From the NCBI GenBank assembly GCA_902798605.1, contig CADBXH010000053.1:1-14421 (forward strand): a stretch of 14,421 bases of DNA. The letters run 5' to 3'. The position numbers and the translations under genes were made by a program. The notes beneath the pieces were generated by a model. The model was not told the DNA's origin and made no database searches. It saw only the letters and a program-made list of their open reading frames with translations. Of this stretch, positions 1,122 to 13,623 are shown in pieces (within the stretch, counting starts at the first letter, position 1; each line of letters starts with the position of its first letter). This stretch comes from an uncultured Ruminococcus sp. (GTDB lineage Bacteria; Bacillota_A; Clostridia; Oscillospirales; Acutalibacteraceae).

Positions 1122-1157
1122 AAAAGTATATTAAGTTCATAAAAAACAATGAGATAT

Positions 1158-1175
1158 GGGGAGGCGATCATATTG
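1158..1175 (+). promoter_or_regulatory. Ribosome binding site that selects a TTG start codon
   Basis: GGGGAGG (1158-1164) lies 8 bases upstream of an in-frame TTG (1173-1175). The in-frame ATG at 1149 has only A/T-rich sequence before it and lies upstream of this site. Starting at TTG also gives a cleaner signal peptide. Confidence 0.75.
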
Positions 1176-3884
1176 ACACACAATATTAAAACCAAAACCG
1201 ATAAACGCATCGTTTCCCTTTTTCTCACTATTATAATAGCTGTATCCTTTATCATTCCTTCGTCTGTGACCGCTTTGGCTGAGGAAACATCCCCCGTTAG
1301 GATCGTAACGGAATCTCTCGGCAACCACGTTTCTATACACAGCGATTTGCAGGAGCAGTACCTGAACGGACCGCTTCAGGATATTGCAAGCTACGCTGAC
1401 GGTACCGAAGAACTCAGCAGACCGGCAAATATCACGCTTTCTTGGAATACTGAAATCGACGAAACATACGCCGCAGAAAACGGAGTTTCGGCTGACGGAT
1501 GTAATTATGAGCTGTATTTCGGAAAATCAGACGATTTTTCCGACGCTAAGGTATATTATACCGCCGAAACATCATATCAGGTCACGAATCTGGAACTGAA
1601 TACGACATACTATTGGAAAGTCGGATCCGAGATCGGAGGCGAGCGTTACGAAAGCGAGGCATCCTCCTTTACGACCGAGCGAAACGGTCCGCGCAACCTC
1701 TATGTGAGCGGCATTACAAATGTGCGCGATATCGGCGGGTACACGACCCTAAACGGCGATACCGTAAAGCAGGGACGGATCATACGCTGCGGGAAGCTGC
1801 ATAACAGCGACGGAAGCCAAAGGATCAACGCAAAAGGTATTACCGAAATGAGGGAAAACCTCGGTATTAAATCCGAAATAGAGCTTCGCAAAGTATCAAA
1901 CAACGAGTACGGCGGTGTAAGCGGCAGTGTGCTCGGAGATGATGTAAATTATTATCTTTTACCGATGCACTATTCGGGCAATATGTTTGAAGGCACATTT
2001 GATGAAGACAACATCGGCTCGCTTCGCGGTGTATTTGAAGTGCTTTCAAAGGAAGAGAATTACCCCGTTATTTTCCACTGCGCGATCGGAACAGACCGCA
2101 CGGGAATGGTCGCGTATTGCATTGAGGCATTGCTCGGTATGAGCGAGACGGATATTATCCGCGATTACCTCTATTCTAATTTTGGCAAAATCGGCGGTTC
2201 ACGCTCCGTTTCAACTATCCGTTCAAAATATCCGAAATTCATCAAGAATTATGACGGAAAGACCCTGCAGGAAAAGACATACAATTTTTTGAACGAATAT
2301 GTCGGCGTCCCGACCGAACAGCTCGACGCCGTTATCAGGCTCAACCTTATTCCGCGTGACGATACCCTGCGCGGTGAGCCCATCTCCTCTCCAGAGGATT
2401 TCCTCTCAATGAAAGACGACGGCAATTACTATCTCGCGAATGATATTTCCCTTTCGTCCGGATATGCTTCGCAGTTTTTCGGTACGCTTGACGGAAACGG
2501 CCACACCGTAACGACCTCTCAGCCGATGTTTAAAAACCTGAGCGGCGTGGTTAAGAATCTGTCTATCCGCGGCAGCATTTCTTCCTCGGACGGAAGGATA
2601 GGAGCCTTAGCGTATGAAGGCTCGCGCCTCACGTGTATAAATATTAATAACTATGCCGATGTTTCCGTAACAGGTAAGTATTACGCCGCCGGACTCGTGG
2701 GGCACTCTACCGCGTGGGCGTCGTTTATTGACTGTGAAAACTATGGAAATATCAACTCGGCGTATCACGCTGCGGGAATAGTTTGTAGAACGACCGGAGA
2801 ACTGACGCTTTCAAACTGCAAAAATAACGGCAGAATCACCGCTGCTCCCGCGTCGGTTTCGTACTATGCGGGCGGTATGGTAGCAAAATCCGGCGGTTCC
2901 GTAATGATGCAGAACTGCCAAAACAGCGGAGAGGTGACAACGTCGGCGAAATACGTCGGCGGTCTCGGTGGTTATCTCGACACGGATGACGTAATGAAAA
3001 CATTGCTTTCCTGCGAGAACAGCGGCAATGTTATTTGCGGAGGCAAAAACGCTCAGGAGCTTTCGTATGCCGGAGGCGTTGTCGGCTTTATGAAAGGCGG
3101 TAGGTCATACTGTACCCTTTCGCATTGCAGCAATTCCGGTGAGATCATATCCTATGCAGGCGGCAAGACGATCCTTTGCGGTATCTGCGGATATGTCAGT
3201 TCCGAGACTATGGTGATCGCCCATTGCTCGAACACCGGCAGCGAATTGTCGCCGAACGCCGAGGAGAGTACTTGCTACCATTTGTATTACAATCCAACAG
3301 AACCGGAAGCCAAGTATATCCACGATAACGATCCTTGGAAATATGACAATGTTTCGTTTACGATCGAAGGAAAAGGAACATTTAATATCCCTCACGAAAT
3401 GACATTTGGCGAGTGGATCATGACAGGCGGATCTTCGACCGGCAATAATGCGGTCTGGGTTTCTCCCGTGACGGGATTGACCGAAAAACAGATCAGCGAA
3501 AATCCCGCGTTTTCAGGCGTATGGAGCTTTTTCCGCGATGATGTACAAGGGCAGCTCTATACCGAGATCCCTTCGCACCGCGACAACAAAGGCAATGTTA
3601 TCCTGCCCGAGAAAGCGCTTTTGAACCCTGACGGTTCACCGCTCACGGTATCCGATGTGATAACGCCGAATTTTGAATATATGAATATGAATGATCCGAC
3701 CCTTGACGGTGAAATCACTATCAGCGATGTGACTGCCATTCAGCGCCACCTTACCGAATTGGAAAAGATTCCGGACGAAAATCTTGATTTAGTCGACACT
3801 AACGGCGACGATGTGATCAATATAATTGACGCAACCCATCTGCAAAAATATATTGCAGGATTTGACGGCATTGTTTTAAGGTAA
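1173..3884 (+). CDS. Secreted dockerin protein with tyrosine-phosphatase-like domain and GLUG-type repeats
   Basis: The product has 903 residues from TTG 1173. It opens with a Sec signal peptide: a Lys/Arg-rich start, a hydrophobic core LFLTIIIAVSFII, and likely cleavage after VTALA near residue 30. A fibronectin-III-like domain (about 77-167) follows. Next is a Y_phosphatase3-type domain (about 180-395) that begins NVRDIGGY and holds the phosphate loop HCAIGTDRTG, with Cys303 as nucleophile and Arg309. The family often has Lys where this protein has Thr in GTDRTG. Residues about 403-700 start with a DFLSMKDDGNYYLANDISL / TLDGNGHTV opening and contain glycine-rich repeats such as GGMVAKSGG and GGVVGFMKGG with regularly spaced Asn-Cys pairs, as in GLUG or beta-helix repeats. 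A type I dockerin ends the protein (about 841-900), with two calcium-binding repeats (DGEITISDV and DTNGDDVINIIDATHL). Dockerins attach proteins to cohesin scaffolds, so this is probably an extracellular cellulosome or cell-surface component. The substrate is unknown. The gene stands alone between its own promoter and terminator. Confidence 0.85.
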   Translation: MTHNIKTKTDKRIVSLFLTIIIAVSFIIPSSVTALAEETSPVRIVTESLGNHVSIHSDLQEQYLNGPLQDIASYADGTEELSRPANITLSWNTEIDETYAAENGVSADGCNYELYFGKSDDFSDAKVYYTAETSYQVTNLELNTTYYWKVGSEIGGERYESEASSFTTERNGPRNLYVSGITNVRDIGGYTTLNGDTVKQGRIIRCGKLHNSDGSQRINAKGITEMRENLGIKSEIELRKVSNNEYGGVSGSVLGDDVNYYLLPMHYSGNMFEGTFDEDNIGSLRGVFEVLSKEENYPVIFHCAIGTDRTGMVAYCIEALLGMSETDIIRDYLYSNFGKIGGSRSVSTIRSKYPKFIKNYDGKTLQEKTYNFLNEYVGVPTEQLDAVIRLNLIPRDDTLRGEPISSPEDFLSMKDDGNYYLANDISLSSGYASQFFGTLDGNGHTVTTSQPMFKNLSGVVKNLSIRGSISSSDGRIGALAYEGSRLTCININNYADVSVTGKYYAAGLVGHSTAWASFIDCENYGNINSAYHAAGIVCRTTGELTLSNCKNNGRITAAPASVSYYAGGMVAKSGGSVMMQNCQNSGEVTTSAKYVGGLGGYLDTDDVMKTLLSCENSGNVICGGKNAQELSYAGGVVGFMKGGRSYCTLSHCSNSGEIISYAGGKTILCGICGYVSSETMVIAHCSNTGSELSPNAEESTCYHLYYNPTEPEAKYIHDNDPWKYDNVSFTIEGKGTFNIPHEMTFGEWIMTGGSSTGNNAVWVSPVTGLTEKQISENPAFSGVWSFFRDDVQGQLYTEIPSHRDNKGNVILPEKALLNPDGSPLTVSDVITPNFEYMNMNDPTLDGEITISDVTAIQRHLTELEKIPDENLDLVDTNGDDVINIIDATHLQKYIAGFDGIVLR

Positions 3885-8910: not shown

Positions 8911-9417
8911 TTACCAAATATTTAACGAATCCATTTCCCACCTGACCGGATTATTATCTATATATTCATATATTTTATAATAATCTTTTTCATCCCTGAC
9001 TATATGGTCATAGAAAGATTTTTGCCAAATTGATTTGCCGACCTTTTTGGTAACAGCACCTTTTAGGTGTTGAATAACTTGAGAAATATCGGGTGTAGGG
9101 GCGTGCATTGCACGCCCGCGCTCGTCAGCGCAAACCATCAAAAGCAAATGAATGTGGTTAGGCATAACCACATAATTATCAACAGTGACACACGAATATC
9201 GTTTTGGTATTTCTGCAATCATTTCATCAATAATCTTACCAATGTATGAAAGATCTACTTCTGCCTGCGGGCGAGCAATGCTCGCCCCTACATTCCAAAA
9301 CAGCCATTGTTTATCTTTTGAACAAATCGTAATGAAATACGCACCGTTTTGTGAATAATCATAGTTTTCAAGTCTGTTCCTTTTGCGAACAGGTTTTTTA
9401 TGTTCTGTAATCACCAT
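8911..9417 (-). CDS. REP-associated tyrosine transposase (RAYT, Y1/HUH family), copy 1
   Basis: The 168-residue protein is a single-domain Y1 transposase of the IS200-like/RAYT branch, which nicks single-stranded DNA at small hairpins. Visible are the family opening RLENYDYSQNGAYFITIC (15-32), the metal-binding HIH in MPNHIHLLL (HIH at 88-90) and the catalytic tyrosine in SFYDHIVR (Tyr136), then the end motif YEYIDNNPVRW. All catalytic residues are present. The ATG at 9417 lies inside the last codons of argJ, overlapping it by 20 bases. The stop is 17 bases before argB, whose ribosome binding site follows at once. Two palindromes of the GTAGGGGCG family are inserted in frame, encoding VGASIARP (43-50) and RGRAMHAPT (100-108). 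The gene is richer in A/T than the arg genes around it, a sign of separate origin. Confidence 0.88.
   Translation of the reverse strand: MVITEHKKPVRKRNRLENYDYSQNGAYFITICSKDKQWLFWNVGASIARPQAEVDLSYIGKIIDEMIAEIPKRYSCVTVDNYVVMPNHIHLLLMVCADERGRAMHAPTPDISQVIQHLKGAVTKKVGKSIWQKSFYDHIVRDEKDYYKIYEYIDNNPVRWEMDSLNIW
9096..9120 (+). repeat. REP-like palindrome inside transposase copy 1 (C-terminal insert)
   Basis: GTAGGGGCGTGC / GCACGCCCGCG read on the plus strand forms an 8-bp perfect stem (9099-9106 with 9110-9117) and a 3-nt loop. The gene is on the minus strand, so this copy is in reverse orientation relative to the gene and encodes RGRAMHAPT. Together with the copy at 9267-9291 it forms an inverted pair. 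Confidence 0.8.
9267..9291 (-). repeat. REP-like palindrome inside transposase copy 1 (N-terminal insert)
   Basis: On the minus strand this reads GTAGGGGCGAGC / GCTCGCCCGC, an 8-bp stem (9287-9280 with 9276-9269) with a 3-nt loop. It is in the gene's own orientation and is translated as VGASIARP. It differs from the copy at 9096-9120 by a paired change (GAGC/GCTC instead of GTGC/GCAC), which keeps the stem intact. Confidence 0.8.
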
Positions 9418-10669
9418 TTATCTTAACATAATCATATGTCAAATCGCAGCCGTATGCCTCGGCGGTACCTGTGCCGTCCGCTAAATTTATTATGATATCG
9501 ATCTCGTTTTCGAGCAGGATCTCCTTTGCCTTGTCCTCGTCAAAAGCTAAGCCGTAGCCGTCCTTGCAGACCAAAATTTCTCCCTTTGCGGATTTATATG
9601 ACACATCGATTTTGCCGGTATCTACCTCTGCGCCGCTGTAGCCGATCGCGCACAAGATCCTGCCGCAGTTCGCGTCCGCGCCGAACATAGCCGCCTTTAC
9701 AAGGCTCGAGCAAATGACGCTCTTTGCGATGATCTTTGCCGCCGCTTCGTCCTTTGCGCCGTTGACCATGCAGATAACGAGCTTTGACGCGCCCTCGCCG
9801 TCTGAGGCGAGTTTCTTTGCTACGTTTTTGAACGCCGCCGTCAGCGCCTCGGTAAAGAGATAATAGTTATCGTTTTTCTCGGTGATCTCCGTATTTCCGG
9901 CAAGTCCGGAAGCCATTATCGCAAGCGTGTCGTTCGTTGAGGTGTCGCCGTCCACGCTCACCATATTGTAGCTTACATCCGCCGCTTCTACAAGGGCTTC
10001 TCTGAGCATTTCCGCCGAGATCGCCGCGTCGGTCGTGACGAACGACAATGTTGTGCCCATATTGATGTGGATCATACCGCTGCCCTTGGCGATACCGCCT
10101 ATGGTAACCGTTTTGCCGTCGAGCGTGAGCTGAACCGCCCACTCTTTTTTGACGGTATCGGTCGTCATTATTGCCTCGGCGGCGTTTGTTCCGCCGTCAC
10201 GGCTGAGGATATTTTTCAACTCTTCAACGCCCTTTTGTATCGGCTCGATCGGCAACGCCTGACCGATAACACCCGTTGAGGCAACGATCACATCGTCCTC
10301 GTTGACTCCGAGAGCTTCTGACGCTAATGCGCACATAGCCTCCGCCTTTTCGTATCCGTCGGGATTGCAGGCATTGGCGTTGCCGGAGTTGACGATCACC
10401 GCCTGCGCCTTGCCGTTTGCAAGGTGCTTTTGAGTCACATATATCGTATCCGATTTGACCAGATTCTTTGTAAAGATCGCCGCGGCAGTGCACTGCTTTT
10501 CGCAGTAGATCATCGCGAGGTCGCGCTTGCCGTTTGAGGGCAGAAGCGGCTCGTTTTTTTGAGCCGCCTGAGTCACGCTGCCATATGCTTTAACTCCGGC
10601 GCAAACCCCGTTCGCGGTAAAGCCCAAAGGCGTTGTTACAGAACCTTCTATGAAGGAGTATTTATTCAT
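9398..10669 (-). CDS. argJ: Glutamate N-acetyltransferase / ornithine acetyltransferase
   Basis: The enzyme moves the acetyl group from N-acetylornithine to glutamate, producing ornithine and renewing N-acetylglutamate. Some family members also make N-acetylglutamate from acetyl-CoA. The precursor has 423 residues and cuts itself into two chains at a conserved Thr. Here the site reads GSGMIHINMGTTLSF with Thr206 as the likely nucleophile. The residue before it is Gly205, where most family members have Ala. The oxyanion-hole segment STGVIG (131-136) and the family ending DYVKINGDYRT are present, so the protein is complete although the next gene starts within its last codons. The start at ATG 10669 follows AAAAAGGAAAG. 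A GTG six codons upstream is possible but has no better site. About 98 bases separate it from argC, the largest gap inside this part of the operon. Confidence 0.95.
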   Translation of the reverse strand: MNKYSFIEGSVTTPLGFTANGVCAGVKAYGSVTQAAQKNEPLLPSNGKRDLAMIYCEKQCTAAAIFTKNLVKSDTIYVTQKHLANGKAQAVIVNSGNANACNPDGYEKAEAMCALASEALGVNEDDVIVASTGVIGQALPIEPIQKGVEELKNILSRDGGTNAAEAIMTTDTVKKEWAVQLTLDGKTVTIGGIAKGSGMIHINMGTTLSFVTTDAAISAEMLREALVEAADVSYNMVSVDGDTSTNDTLAIMASGLAGNTEITEKNDNYYLFTEALTAAFKNVAKKLASDGEGASKLVICMVNGAKDEAAAKIIAKSVICSSLVKAAMFGADANCGRILCAIGYSGAEVDTGKIDVSYKSAKGEILVCKDGYGLAFDEDKAKEILLENEIDIIINLADGTGTAEAYGCDLTYDYVKINGDYRT

Positions 10670-10692
10670 AATTCTTTCCTTTTTCACAATTT

Positions 10693-10768
10693 ATAAACGC
10701 GCCGTTTATCAACATATAAAATCAAGACAAACGTAATAATAGGCGCATCGGATGCAACGTCACGTTGC
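10693..10768 (-). other. argC-argJ intergenic stretch with two small hairpins
   Basis: The 98-base gap between argC and argJ contains GCAACG (10754-10759) paired with CGTTGC (10763-10768), touching the argC stop codon, and ATAAACG (10693-10699) paired with CGTTTAT (10703-10709) just before the argJ ribosome binding site. Neither is followed by a T-run, so neither looks like a terminator. They could affect mRNA stability or processing. No promoter with good hexamer spacing was found here. Confidence 0.4.
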
Positions 10769-11802
10769 TAAAATGCGGGAGGCATTATGACCAGCCCTGT
10801 TTTTTCATCAAGTCCGAAAATAATATTCATATTCTGGATAGCCTGACCCGCGGCGCCCTTGACCATATTGTCGATCGCCGCGCAGGCTACAAGCTTCTTC
10901 GCTCGCTTATCGTGGTGGAGCGAAATATCGCAGAAGTTTGAATATCTAACGTTGTGGATATCCGCGCACTTGCCGTCATCGAGGAGCCTGATAAAGAACT
11001 CATCCTTATAGTAATCCTCGTAAGCCTTTTTGATATTTTCAAAGCTTACGCCGTCCTTGATGTCGGCGTAAACCGTCGCCAAAATACCCCTGTTTACGGG
11101 CAGAAGATGCGGAACGAATGTGATGGTAACATCTTCTCCGCTGAGCTTTGACAAGGTCTGCTCGATCTCGGGAGTGTGGCGGTGAGAAGCTACCTTGTAG
11201 GCGTGGAAGCCCTCGTTGAGCTCGGGGAAGTGGCTGCCCTGGTTAGGCTTTCTGCCCGCGCCGGTCACACCGCTTTTGCAGTCGCAGATTATTCCCTTTG
11301 TGCTGATCAAGCCGTTAGCGATAGCCGGAGCGATCGCCAAGGGCGAACAGGTCGTGTAACAGCCGGGGTTTGCGATAAGGCGCTTGCCCTTGATCTGCTC
11401 CCTGAAAAACTCGGGCAGACCGTAAACGCTGTGCTTGTGGAGCTCCTTGTCAAGGAAGGTTCCGCCGTACCACTCGGTGTACTCCTCCTCGCTCTCAAGG
11501 CGGAAATCCGCGCCGAGGTCTATAAACGCCTTGCCTGCCACAATGCATTTTTCCGCAAGCTCCTGAGAAAGTCCATGCGGAAGAGCGGCAAAGATAACGT
11601 CGCTCTTTTCGATAACTTCGCCCTGGGTCTTGCAAATCATATCGTTTAAGAATTTGTAGGACGGGTAAACGTCGCTGAGCGCCTGACCCTCAAACGAAAC
11701 CGAGCTGATCGCCGCGATCTCCGCCTGCGGGTGAGCATACAAAAGCCTTACCAGCTCAGCGCCCGCGTAACCCGTTGCGCCTACGATTCCTGCTTTTATC
11801 AT
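10768..11802 (-). CDS. argC: N-acetyl-gamma-glutamyl-phosphate reductase
   Basis: The enzyme uses NADPH to reduce N-acetylglutamyl phosphate to the semialdehyde, the third step of the pathway. The 344-residue length is typical of the long form. The NADP-binding start IVGATGYAGAELVRLL (6-21), the catalytic cysteine in NPGCYTTCS (Cys148), the GVTGAGRKP loop and the SHRHTPEIEQ block with the catalytic His are all visible. The ATG at 11802 lies 7 bases after the stop codon of the upstream transposase, and the AGGTGATGA that serves as ribosome binding site overlaps the transposase stop. Thus the end of the mobile gene forms the translation start region of argC. Confidence 0.96.
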   Translation of the reverse strand: MIKAGIVGATGYAGAELVRLLYAHPQAEIAAISSVSFEGQALSDVYPSYKFLNDMICKTQGEVIEKSDVIFAALPHGLSQELAEKCIVAGKAFIDLGADFRLESEEEYTEWYGGTFLDKELHKHSVYGLPEFFREQIKGKRLIANPGCYTTCSPLAIAPAIANGLISTKGIICDCKSGVTGAGRKPNQGSHFPELNEGFHAYKVASHRHTPEIEQTLSKLSGEDVTITFVPHLLPVNRGILATVYADIKDGVSFENIKKAYEDYYKDEFFIRLLDDGKCADIHNVRYSNFCDISLHHDKRAKKLVACAAIDNMVKGAAGQAIQNMNIIFGLDEKTGLVIMPPAF

Positions 11803-11809
11803 TTTATCA

Positions 11810-12322
11810 TCACCTATAATAATGTTTATCTTTAATCCAACTAATTGGATTCCCTTCTATATATTCTCTGATTTCATTTAAATCTTGTTCACACCTGACT
11901 ACATGTTCATAATAACTTCTTTGCCAAACTCGACCATCAAACGGCTTTAACATTCCGCTCTTTACCATTTTGATGTATTCATTAGTCGTCTGTGTTTTAA
12001 ACCACTGGATAACCGTTTGTAGGGGCGGACCCGTGTGTCCGCCCGCTTGTGCGCACTTAAAGATTATAAAGTGAATGTGGTTAGGCATTACGCAGTGGTA
12101 ATCAAGTATTATATTATCAAACTTTTGCTCCAAAGAATATAGTTTCTGTAAAACCATACGCCCGGCTATGTTCGGGCGGACACATGGGTCCGCCCCTACG
12201 ATATCAATATCAGCTAACAGATTTGCCTTGTTATGCGTACAAACAGTAACAAAGTACGCTCCGTTTTCTGAATAATCGTAATTCTTAAGACGTAATTGCT
12301 TTCGTTTTGGAAGTCTTTTCAT
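11810..12322 (-). CDS. REP-associated tyrosine transposase (RAYT, Y1/HUH family), copy 2
   Basis: The 170-residue protein is of the same family as the copy at 8911-9417 but clearly diverged, so the two are not a recent duplication. The opening RLKNYDYSENGAYFVTVC, the HIH of MPNHIHFII (82-84) and the catalytic tyrosine of RSYYEHVVR (Tyr138, matching Tyr136 of the other copy) are intact. Its ATG overlaps the argH stop in ATGA, the classic arrangement for translational coupling. Two palindromes are inserted in frame and translated as VGADPCVRP (42-50) and AGGHTGPPLQ (93-102), at the same two places as in the other copy. The gene is A/T-rich compared with argH and argC. It is likely translated as part of the operon. 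Whether it still mobilises anything cannot be seen. Confidence 0.88.
   Translation of the reverse strand: MKRLPKRKQLRLKNYDYSENGAYFVTVCTHNKANLLADIDIVGADPCVRPNIAGRMVLQKLYSLEQKFDNIILDYHCVMPNHIHFIIFKCAQAGGHTGPPLQTVIQWFKTQTTNEYIKMVKSGMLKPFDGRVWQRSYYEHVVRCEQDLNEIREYIEGNPISWIKDKHYYR
12019..12046 (+). repeat. REP-like palindrome inside transposase copy 2 (C-terminal insert)
   Basis: On the plus strand GTAGGGGCGGAC ... GTCCGCCCGC forms an 8-bp stem (12023-12030 with 12037-12044) with a 6-nt loop. It is reversed relative to the gene and is translated as AGGHTGPPL. The palindrome is read in a different codon phase from the corresponding insert in the other transposase. Confidence 0.8.
12172..12200 (-). 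repeat. REP-like palindrome inside transposase copy 2 (N-terminal insert)
   Basis: On the minus strand GTAGGGGCGGAC ... GTCCGCCCG forms an 8-bp stem (12195-12188 with 12181-12174) with a 6-nt loop and is translated as VGADPCVRP. Its stem sequence equals that of the copy at 12019-12046, with which it forms an inverted pair. An adjacent CGCCCG (12159-12164) could pair with CGGGCG (12173-12178) as an alternative fold. Confidence 0.8.
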
Positions 12323-13623
12323 CTGCGCTGTGATACGCAGTTTTCAAGCGAGATCGCGTTGTAAACATCATCGCTAAACACATCGCAGACCGCTTTGTAC
12401 TCCTCGATCGGGAGATTCTCAAGATCCGTGCCGAGCTCAATGCATCTTGCGACAAGCTCGCCGGTAGCCTTGTACGCGTCGCGGAAGGGCACGCCGTTTT
12501 TGGTGAGCCAATCGGCGCAGTCGGTAGCGTTGATAAATCCGCCGGCGGCCGCTTTGCGCATATTTGTCGGGATAACGCGCATTGTATCGAGCATAGGAGT
12601 GAACGCCGTCAGGCACATCTTTACGGTGTCGACCGCGTCAAAGATCGCCTCTTTGTCCTCTTGCATATCCTTGTTGTACGCAAGCGCGATTCCCTTCATA
12701 ACGGTGAGCAGGGTCATTGTGTCGCCGAACACGCGTCCGCTCTTGCCGCGAACAAGCTCCGCAATATCGGGATTCTTTTTCTGCGGCATAATCGACGAAC
12801 CGGTTGAAAACGCATCGTCGAGCTCAACAAACTTGAACTCCCAGCTGCACCACATAATGATCTCCTCGGAAAAACGGCTTAGGTGCACCATAATTATCGA
12901 GAGGATAGACGCAAGCTCTATGCAGTAGTCACGGTCGGATACACCGTCGAGCGAGTTGTTTGTAACTCTGTCAAAGCCGAGCAGATCGGCTGTAAATGTT
13001 CTGTCGATCGGATATGTCGTTCCTGCCAACGCGCAGGAGCCGAGCGGCATTTCGTCCATTCTGTCAAGGCAGTCGTCCAAACGCGAAACATCCCTGAGAA
13101 GCATTTCGGCGTAAGCCAAAAGATGGTGACCAAAGGTTATGGGCTGCGCCCTTTGAAGGTGGGTGTAGCCGGGCATTACCGTGTCGCTGTACTTATCTGC
13201 CTTGTCGGCGATGACCTTTATAAGGTCAACCACAAGCTTTTCTATGTTGACGATCTCTTTTTTCAAGTAGAGTTTAATATCAAGAGCGACTTGGTCGTTA
13301 CGGCTTCTGGATGTATGCAAACGCTTGCCGTTGTCGCCGATACGCTTCGTCAACTCGCCCTCGATAAAGGTGTGGATATCCTCCGCCTCCATATCGATTT
13401 TCAGCTTTCCGCTGTCAATATCGGCAAGGATCCCACTGAGGCCCTTAATGATTTCCCGAGAGCTTTCCTCGCTGATGATCCCGCACTTGCCGAGCATAGT
13501 CGCGTGGGCGATGCTGCCCTCGATATCCTCGCGATACATACGGCTGTCAAACGGGATCGAGCTGTTAAAATCGTTTGTTGTTTTTGATAATTCCTTTTTA
13601 AATCTGCCTTTCCAAAGCTGCAT
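12319..13623 (-). CDS. argH: Argininosuccinate lyase, C-terminal tail probably lost
   Basis: The enzyme splits argininosuccinate into arginine and fumarate, the last step of the pathway, as a cytoplasmic homotetramer. Visible are HTSRSRNDQ (103-111), the catalytic-region YTHLQRAQP (153-161) and the flexible signature loop GSSIMPQKKNPD (275-286) with the catalytic Ser. The product has 434 residues, while family members usually have about 455-465. It ends AISLENCVSQRR, exactly where relatives continue with a segment like S-x-GG-x-(S/T)-P-x-x-V over another 20 or so residues. The stop codon overlaps the ATG of the transposase gene (ATGA), so insertion of that gene most likely replaced the tail. 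The active-site regions are intact, so activity is expected but unproven. The start at ATG 13623 is supported by GAGG 9 bases upstream and the usual MQLWKGRF opening. Confidence 0.93.
   Translation of the reverse strand: MQLWKGRFKKELSKTTNDFNSSIPFDSRMYREDIEGSIAHATMLGKCGIISEESSREIIKGLSGILADIDSGKLKIDMEAEDIHTFIEGELTKRIGDNGKRLHTSRSRNDQVALDIKLYLKKEIVNIEKLVVDLIKVIADKADKYSDTVMPGYTHLQRAQPITFGHHLLAYAEMLLRDVSRLDDCLDRMDEMPLGSCALAGTTYPIDRTFTADLLGFDRVTNNSLDGVSDRDYCIELASILSIIMVHLSRFSEEIIMWCSWEFKFVELDDAFSTGSSIMPQKKNPDIAELVRGKSGRVFGDTMTLLTVMKGIALAYNKDMQEDKEAIFDAVDTVKMCLTAFTPMLDTMRVIPTNMRKAAAGGFINATDCADWLTKNGVPFRDAYKATGELVARCIELGTDLENLPIEEYKAVCDVFSDDVYNAISLENCVSQRR

Follow-up and report, generated by a model that had tools for sequence, protein, structure and literature searches.

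Inverted pairs of in-frame REP hairpins enclose the HuH codons in two RAYT transposase genes

We found that two genes for REP-associated tyrosine transposases (RAYTs), RAYT-A and RAYT-B, each contain two hairpins of one REP family within their reading frames. In each gene, one palindrome precedes the HuH motif and the other follows it; the two form an inverted pair with their GTAG tags outward and the HuH codons between them. The genes lie on the minus strand of a 14,421-nucleotide stretch of DNA, called the window here, in which RAYT-A (168 aa) occupies 8911..9417 and RAYT-B (170 aa) 11810..12322. On balance, it is somewhat probable that each gene is a RAYT with a nested REPIN-like pair of cognate substrate hairpins, which is kept as nucleic acid while the encoded peptide is a passenger.

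In RAYT-A, the site-1 REP (9269..9291, minus strand) has GTAG on the coding strand and is translated as codons 43-50, VGASIARP, and the site-2 REP (9095..9117, plus strand) has GTAG on the non-coding strand and is translated as codons 101-108, GRAMHAPT. Their predicted single-stranded DNA folds are -10.3 kcal/mol (z -4.77) and -10.6 kcal/mol (z -4.61). The site-1 REP of RAYT-B (12174..12199, minus strand; GTAG on the coding strand) gives codons 42-50, VGADPCVRP, and its site-2 REP (12019..12044, plus strand; GTAG on the non-coding strand) lies within codons 93-102, AGGHTGPPLQ; both fold at -9.9 kcal/mol (z -3.95 and -4.09, respectively). The pattern GTAGGGGCG-N(0-25)-CGCCC has exactly four matches in the window, all inside the two RAYT ORFs, and none in 200 dinucleotide shuffles; by the GTAGGGGCG pattern no REP was found outside the RAYT coding sequences in the 14.4 kb. 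Five further GT[AG]GGG tags are present in the window, none of which has a comparable stem by inspection. When the peptides were held fixed and coded by random synonymous codons, equal pairing was reached in 133, 269, 221 and 620 of 200,000 draws for the four palindromes, which are thus not imposed by the protein. A sequence-only reading of this DNA had described four translated palindromes of one family inside two RAYT genes. Pattern matching and the ORFs confirm this description, the residue positions and peptides agree to within a residue or two, and the palindromes are indeed GTAG-type REPs in inverted pairs at two loop sites.

RAYT-A and RAYT-B are RAYTs (TnpAREP) and appear most like subclass 2.4. 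Pfam Y1_Tnp matches them with 27.2 and 30.5 bits, respectively (gathering threshold 23). Both translations contain the HuH motif of class 2 RAYT/TnpAREP as PNHIH, at residues 86-90 of RAYT-A (9148..9162, minus strand), where the columns are invariant, and at residues 80-84 of RAYT-B (12071..12085, minus strand), in each case inside the REP pair. The class 2 signature Y---NP (PMC6006769) is present as YIDNNP in RAYT-A and as YIEGNP in RAYT-B. The two proteins are 34% identical. The NCBIfam model REP_Tyr_transpos gives 65.9 bits for RAYT-A and 64.9 for RAYT-B, both under its 80-bit cut-off, which is a naming threshold and not a defining trait. A sequence search of the PDB yielded no real relative. 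AF2 models had pLDDT values of 78.1 (RAYT-A) and 83.8 (RAYT-B), and a fold search carried out on the RAYT-B model alone gave TnpAREP 4er8_A as the best PDB match (E 2.9e-6, TM 0.59).

The minus-strand gene order is argH, RAYT-B, argC, argJ, RAYT-A, argB, an acetyltransferase-like gene, argD and argF; the arg names are assigned from the arginine pathway and agree with synteny in relatives. RAYT-B is thus located between argH and argC, and RAYT-A between argJ and argB. The argC and argJ genes between the two RAYTs are outside the REP feature, though within 8911..12322. RAYT-A begins within the final codons of argJ (9398-9417), read in a different frame, and its stop lies just before argB; the first bases of RAYT-B coincide with the final ones of argH. 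Thus the inserted (or surviving) DNA is essentially the ORF. The argH of the window ends with CVSQRR and a stop codon (12319-12330), and that of L001 is about 25 residues longer (CVSQRTAFGGPAPEL...); the argH tail seems to have been lost at the RAYT-B junction. L001 belongs to the genome G001, whose argH and argC share 92% and whose argJ shares 82% identity with the window genes; a RAYT 60% identical to RAYT-B is found in the same operon place. No RAYT was found at the argH/argC or argJ/argB junction of L143, nor between argJ and argB in L142, L144, L145 and L146. Elsewhere in the window, 1149-3884 encodes a 911-aa protein with an apparent tyrosine-phosphatase segment and an apparent C-terminal dockerin-like repeat.

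We surveyed 112 related RAYT ORFs, taken from stop to stop, which comprise 80 genome loci (the best 80 of at least 585 confirmed), 30 loci of the G001 family and the window; ORFs below 60 bits or 330 nt had been excluded. They contain 206 tagged hairpins, whereas 20 synonymous shuffles gave 4-20 (mean 11.6) and four control tags 7-20. At least one tagged hairpin occurs in 98 of the 112 ORFs, and 95 have one at the two loop sites; since the ORFs were picked by protein similarity, these shares do not represent prevalence among RAYTs at large. Site 1 was defined as the region from the DYS motif to HuH and site 2 as that from HuH to the Trp preceding the Tyr. Another 27 of the 206 hairpins lie before the DYS motif and, the ORFs being stop to stop, some of these may be upstream of the start codon. 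Site 1 has 57 plus and no minus hairpins, and site 2 has 29 plus and 89 minus. The layout of the window genes (site-1 plus and site-2 minus) was found in 41 genes with a median spacer of 140 nt, and a second layout with both copies in site 2 was found in 14 genes with a median spacer of 39 nt, including loci titled Geobacter, Nitrospinota, Latescibacterota and Cyanobacteria (L011, L019, L030, L042); 14 genes have no hairpin. The three reading frames account for 40, 12 and 37 hairpins at site 2. A coding filter does not account for the one-sided site 1, as none of the three frames of the minus-orientation tag contains a stop; common descent might. A tree of the 112 genes from 148 masked columns, too weak to tell gain from loss, contains at least 16 changes of site-1 state and five independent pairs on supported branches.

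The arms of these hairpins pair and covary beyond what the peptide requires. Because choosing hairpins for their pairing would bias covariation, loci were chosen by tag only and arms were swapped between genes. Own arms paired at 7.66 of 9 positions for site 1, 7.73 for site-2 minus and 7.32 for site-2 plus hairpins, whereas swapped arms paired at 5.45, 5.58 and 6.07, respectively. Stem families differ widely from gene to gene. In the site-1/site-2 class (n=50), evolution of the two copies within a gene is concerted: the match within a gene's own pair was 0.849, compared with 0.689 when the partner came from the nearest relative (31 wins, 12 ties, 7 losses). The two copies are identical in 16 of these 50 genes; throughout the class their strands are opposite, and in 22 genes their frames differ. 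The G001 ortholog of RAYT-B has a CAC/GTG stem in both in-gene REPs and the window gene has GAC/GTC in both, which suggests that the ortholog changed stem type at both sites together. No concert was found in the class with both copies in site 2 (0.620 vs 0.598; 11 wins, 2 ties, 8 losses; identical in 0 of 21), and this counts against the in-gene pair being a substrate. Perhaps near-identical inverted repeats are unstable at such close distance. The left copy in this class is often of one stem type and the right copy of another. As a separate observation, a left AGACC stem and a right GAACC stem recur in the differently named groups of L017, L021, L022, L029, L030 and L047, all with both copies in site 2; in L047 it is the second of the plus copies that has the AGACC stem. 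At the protein level, the covariation between site 1 and site 2 among A-type homologs (n=109) was reached in none of 5000 permutations. For the B-type set the observed value was reached in 166 of 5000, and the predicted code was found in 27 of 89, against a permutation mean of 20.0 and a maximum of 27; this set mixes both architectures, and the DNA-level test was therefore preferred.

In-gene stem types are linked to the REPs elsewhere in the genome, without always being the same. In G001, GTAGGGGC-N(8-20)-GCCC had 49 matches and the reversed control one. Among the 48 that were placed, 26 are in no ORF of at least 70 aa, 15 are confined to short ORFs (70-100 aa), 6 are in longer ORFs that may not be genes (110-725 aa) and 1 is in the RAYT. 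Nine close pairs, picked by hand, are outward REPIN-like units, and the right end is identical to the RAYT-A site-2 REP in five of them. The expectation that the window palindromes occur elsewhere in the genome, looked at in G001 as the nearest relative among the genomes examined, held for the RAYT-A site-2 REP, which has six exact copies, and not for the other three, which have no exact copy among the 49 listed matches. The stem type inside G001's own RAYT accounts for 2 of the 49 matches and another type for 11, which speaks against a substrate pair. We also counted five in-gene stem types in 16 genomes, the owner of a type being defined by the one RAYT gene read per genome. The type was matched in all seven owner genomes and beyond the gene pair in five of them: 15 times in G157 (3 identical to the in-gene sequence), 3 in G077, 8 in G086, 25 in G091 and 3 in G006. 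In G021 and G159 the pattern matches only the in-gene pair, so that no genomic population of that type would be served there, again contrary to a substrate pair. Non-owner combinations gave any match in 9 of 73 cases, including 12 matches in G001 and 24 in G105; the latter are copies of a type absent from the one in-gene pair read in that genome (L120), which likewise weighs against it.

Flanking REPs were also considered, with 11 of the 112 genes left out for too little flank. No REP lies within 600 bp on either side in 41 of 49 genes with at least two in-gene REPs, compared with 20 of 31 genes with none by strict count; since the absence is common without in-gene REPs too, it argues only weakly for replacement of flanking REPs. 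The 80-bit REP_Tyr_transpos cut-off is passed by four RAYT ORFs of G530 and one of G531, which are of another class and were each read whole. In G531 (the genome of L037, titled Bergeriella denitrificans), this RAYT has six flanking REPs and none inside, and another RAYT, whose loops are empty, lies between two outward-tagged REPs that stand 86 bp before it and 10 bp after it, respectively. The four ORFs of G530 have none inside, and the L012 gene of that genome has two in its ORF. For the in-gene controls, 14 of 19 loci were unused, ten of them without a whole gene read.

In-frame REPs inside tnpAREP genes are already known. Quentin 2018 (PMC6006769) describes them within subclass 2.4 genes, generally between HuH and Y, and calls them predominant; the variable region between HuH and Y is placed there in a peripheral loop, the insertion at the equivalent of site 2 is likewise located away from DNA, and subclass 2.4 holds Bertels RAYT group 4. 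The site-2 REP of both window genes corresponds to this arrangement. The window genes differ from subclass 2.4 as described in the text consulted by the REP before HuH, by the outward pair around HuH and by the concerted change in homologs; flanking REPs are described there as well, whereas the window genes have none. The view that in-gene REPs are peculiar to this genome has to be abandoned, because they occur in related RAYTs also and the essence is in print (Quentin 2018). We encountered no published account of the pair architecture or of how it evolved: the main-text parts consulted of the openly licensed papers searched contained no mention of the pre-HuH site, the outward pair or the concerted change, and RepRanger 2025 (PMC12306157) gave no match to the terms sought. 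As far as the accessible sections of the following papers go, REPINs (Bertels and Rainey 2011, PMC3116915) share the outward layout of two inverted REPs and a spacer, but they are extragenic and mobile, whereas the spacer here is coding sequence. The classical REPtron (PMC3733652, PMC8266576) also joins a RAYT with GTAG REPs, but these flank the gene, whereas in the window they are inside and none is outside. Di Nocera 2013 (PMC3733652) treats GTAG REPs, intragenic REPs and REP-flanked RAYTs, with no in-RAYT pairs in the sections seen. Rickettsia palindromic elements and other intragenic REPs (PMC3733652) are similarly in frame and translated; however, they are in unrelated host genes, mostly at different sites, and not in the transposase itself.

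These genes bear on how RAYTs and REPs remain matched. The two same-family hairpins, placed in frame at the two loop sites with the HuH-core codons as spacer, may be the cognate substrate of the enzyme that the gene encodes. In E. coli, recognition by TnpAREP requires GTAG and is confined to the single-stranded REP, excluding the complementary strand (PMC8266576); each strand of the window genes would therefore offer one substrate. It is plausible that a RAYT recognises the hairpins while its gene is single-stranded, and that the peptides are passengers in tolerant loops. A pair inside the gene would keep enzyme and target linked when an essentially bare ORF inserts, here between operon genes. 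We infer that the RAYT acts on its own gene and that selection favours enzyme-target linkage. The sequence-only reading had also suggested that the protein might bind its own gene or mRNA or be tethered to it. A bolder and rather doubtful extension is that the transposase gene is its own substrate: the two hairpin ends, which relatives have outside the gene, would now be in the reading frame around the catalytic core, and the bare ORF would be a complete enzyme-plus-target unit whose specificity and target co-evolve and travel together. Since one stretch of 500 bp yields both the enzyme and its candidate target in many genomes, these genes provide natural matched and mismatched sets for binding and cleavage tests. 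In addition, they clearly exemplify coding sequence that is maintained as a palindrome or rewritten into one time and again.

A possible but less probable explanation is passive: an ancestral RAYT would have received REPs in two permissive loops and passed them on, and conversion, between the two copies or with REPs elsewhere in the genome, would sometimes have replaced their sequence, with no role for the gene. Common descent can give one orientation and one frame at site 1, where 52 of 57 hairpins are in frame 0. The models also agree with permissive loops, as site 2 is coil in both (in RAYT-B mostly coil, followed by helix 101-121) and residues 46-51 of RAYT-A, at site 1, have pLDDT below 50; part of site 1 in RAYT-B is modelled as strand 45-50. 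Unrelated genes are also known to contain intragenic REPs (PMC3733652), and decayed copies exist: some homologs retain the peptide without a good hairpin (L111, L114), which qualifies the earlier REP-insertion proposal. These are a minority: of the 61 tags at site 1, 43 pair at 8 or more of 9 positions, as do 72 of the 94 minus tags at site 2. However, REP density is 2.77 per kb in RAYT ORFs, 0.064 in other ORFs of at least 130 aa and 1.10 in the rest (ORFs called mechanically), and pairing is kept beyond chance even where no genomic copy of the same type was found outside the gene. Passive insertion, which the sequence-only reading had offered as its alternative, accounts by itself for neither the one-sided orientation nor the concerted change of both copies.

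Control at the mRNA level is improbable by comparison. In the mRNA, pairing of the two copies with each other would create a fold over the HuH codons, which would either damp translation or bind the protein for autoregulation. Folding of both RAYT mRNAs is better than that of 100 shuffled versions (z -4.03 and -4.54), and the predicted structure pairs the REPs with one another, which leaves room for an RNA role, but any inverted pair would yield the same prediction. Moreover, the copies in the both-in-site-2 class differ in stem, making a long joint stem weaker there, and the GTAG tag is part of TnpAREP recognition in single-stranded DNA (PMC8266576). Selection for the encoded peptides, with the palindromes as a consequence, is very improbable: similar peptides recur at the same places in many homologs, but synonymous shuffling destroys the hairpins and the three reading frames at site 2 give different peptides.

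As a minor observation, the post-HuH loop of L017, L021, L045 and L048 contains tandem partial copies of the minus REP half, and that of L140 contains tandem partial copies of a peptide derived from the minus half, as if an in-gene REP had been expanded by slippage.
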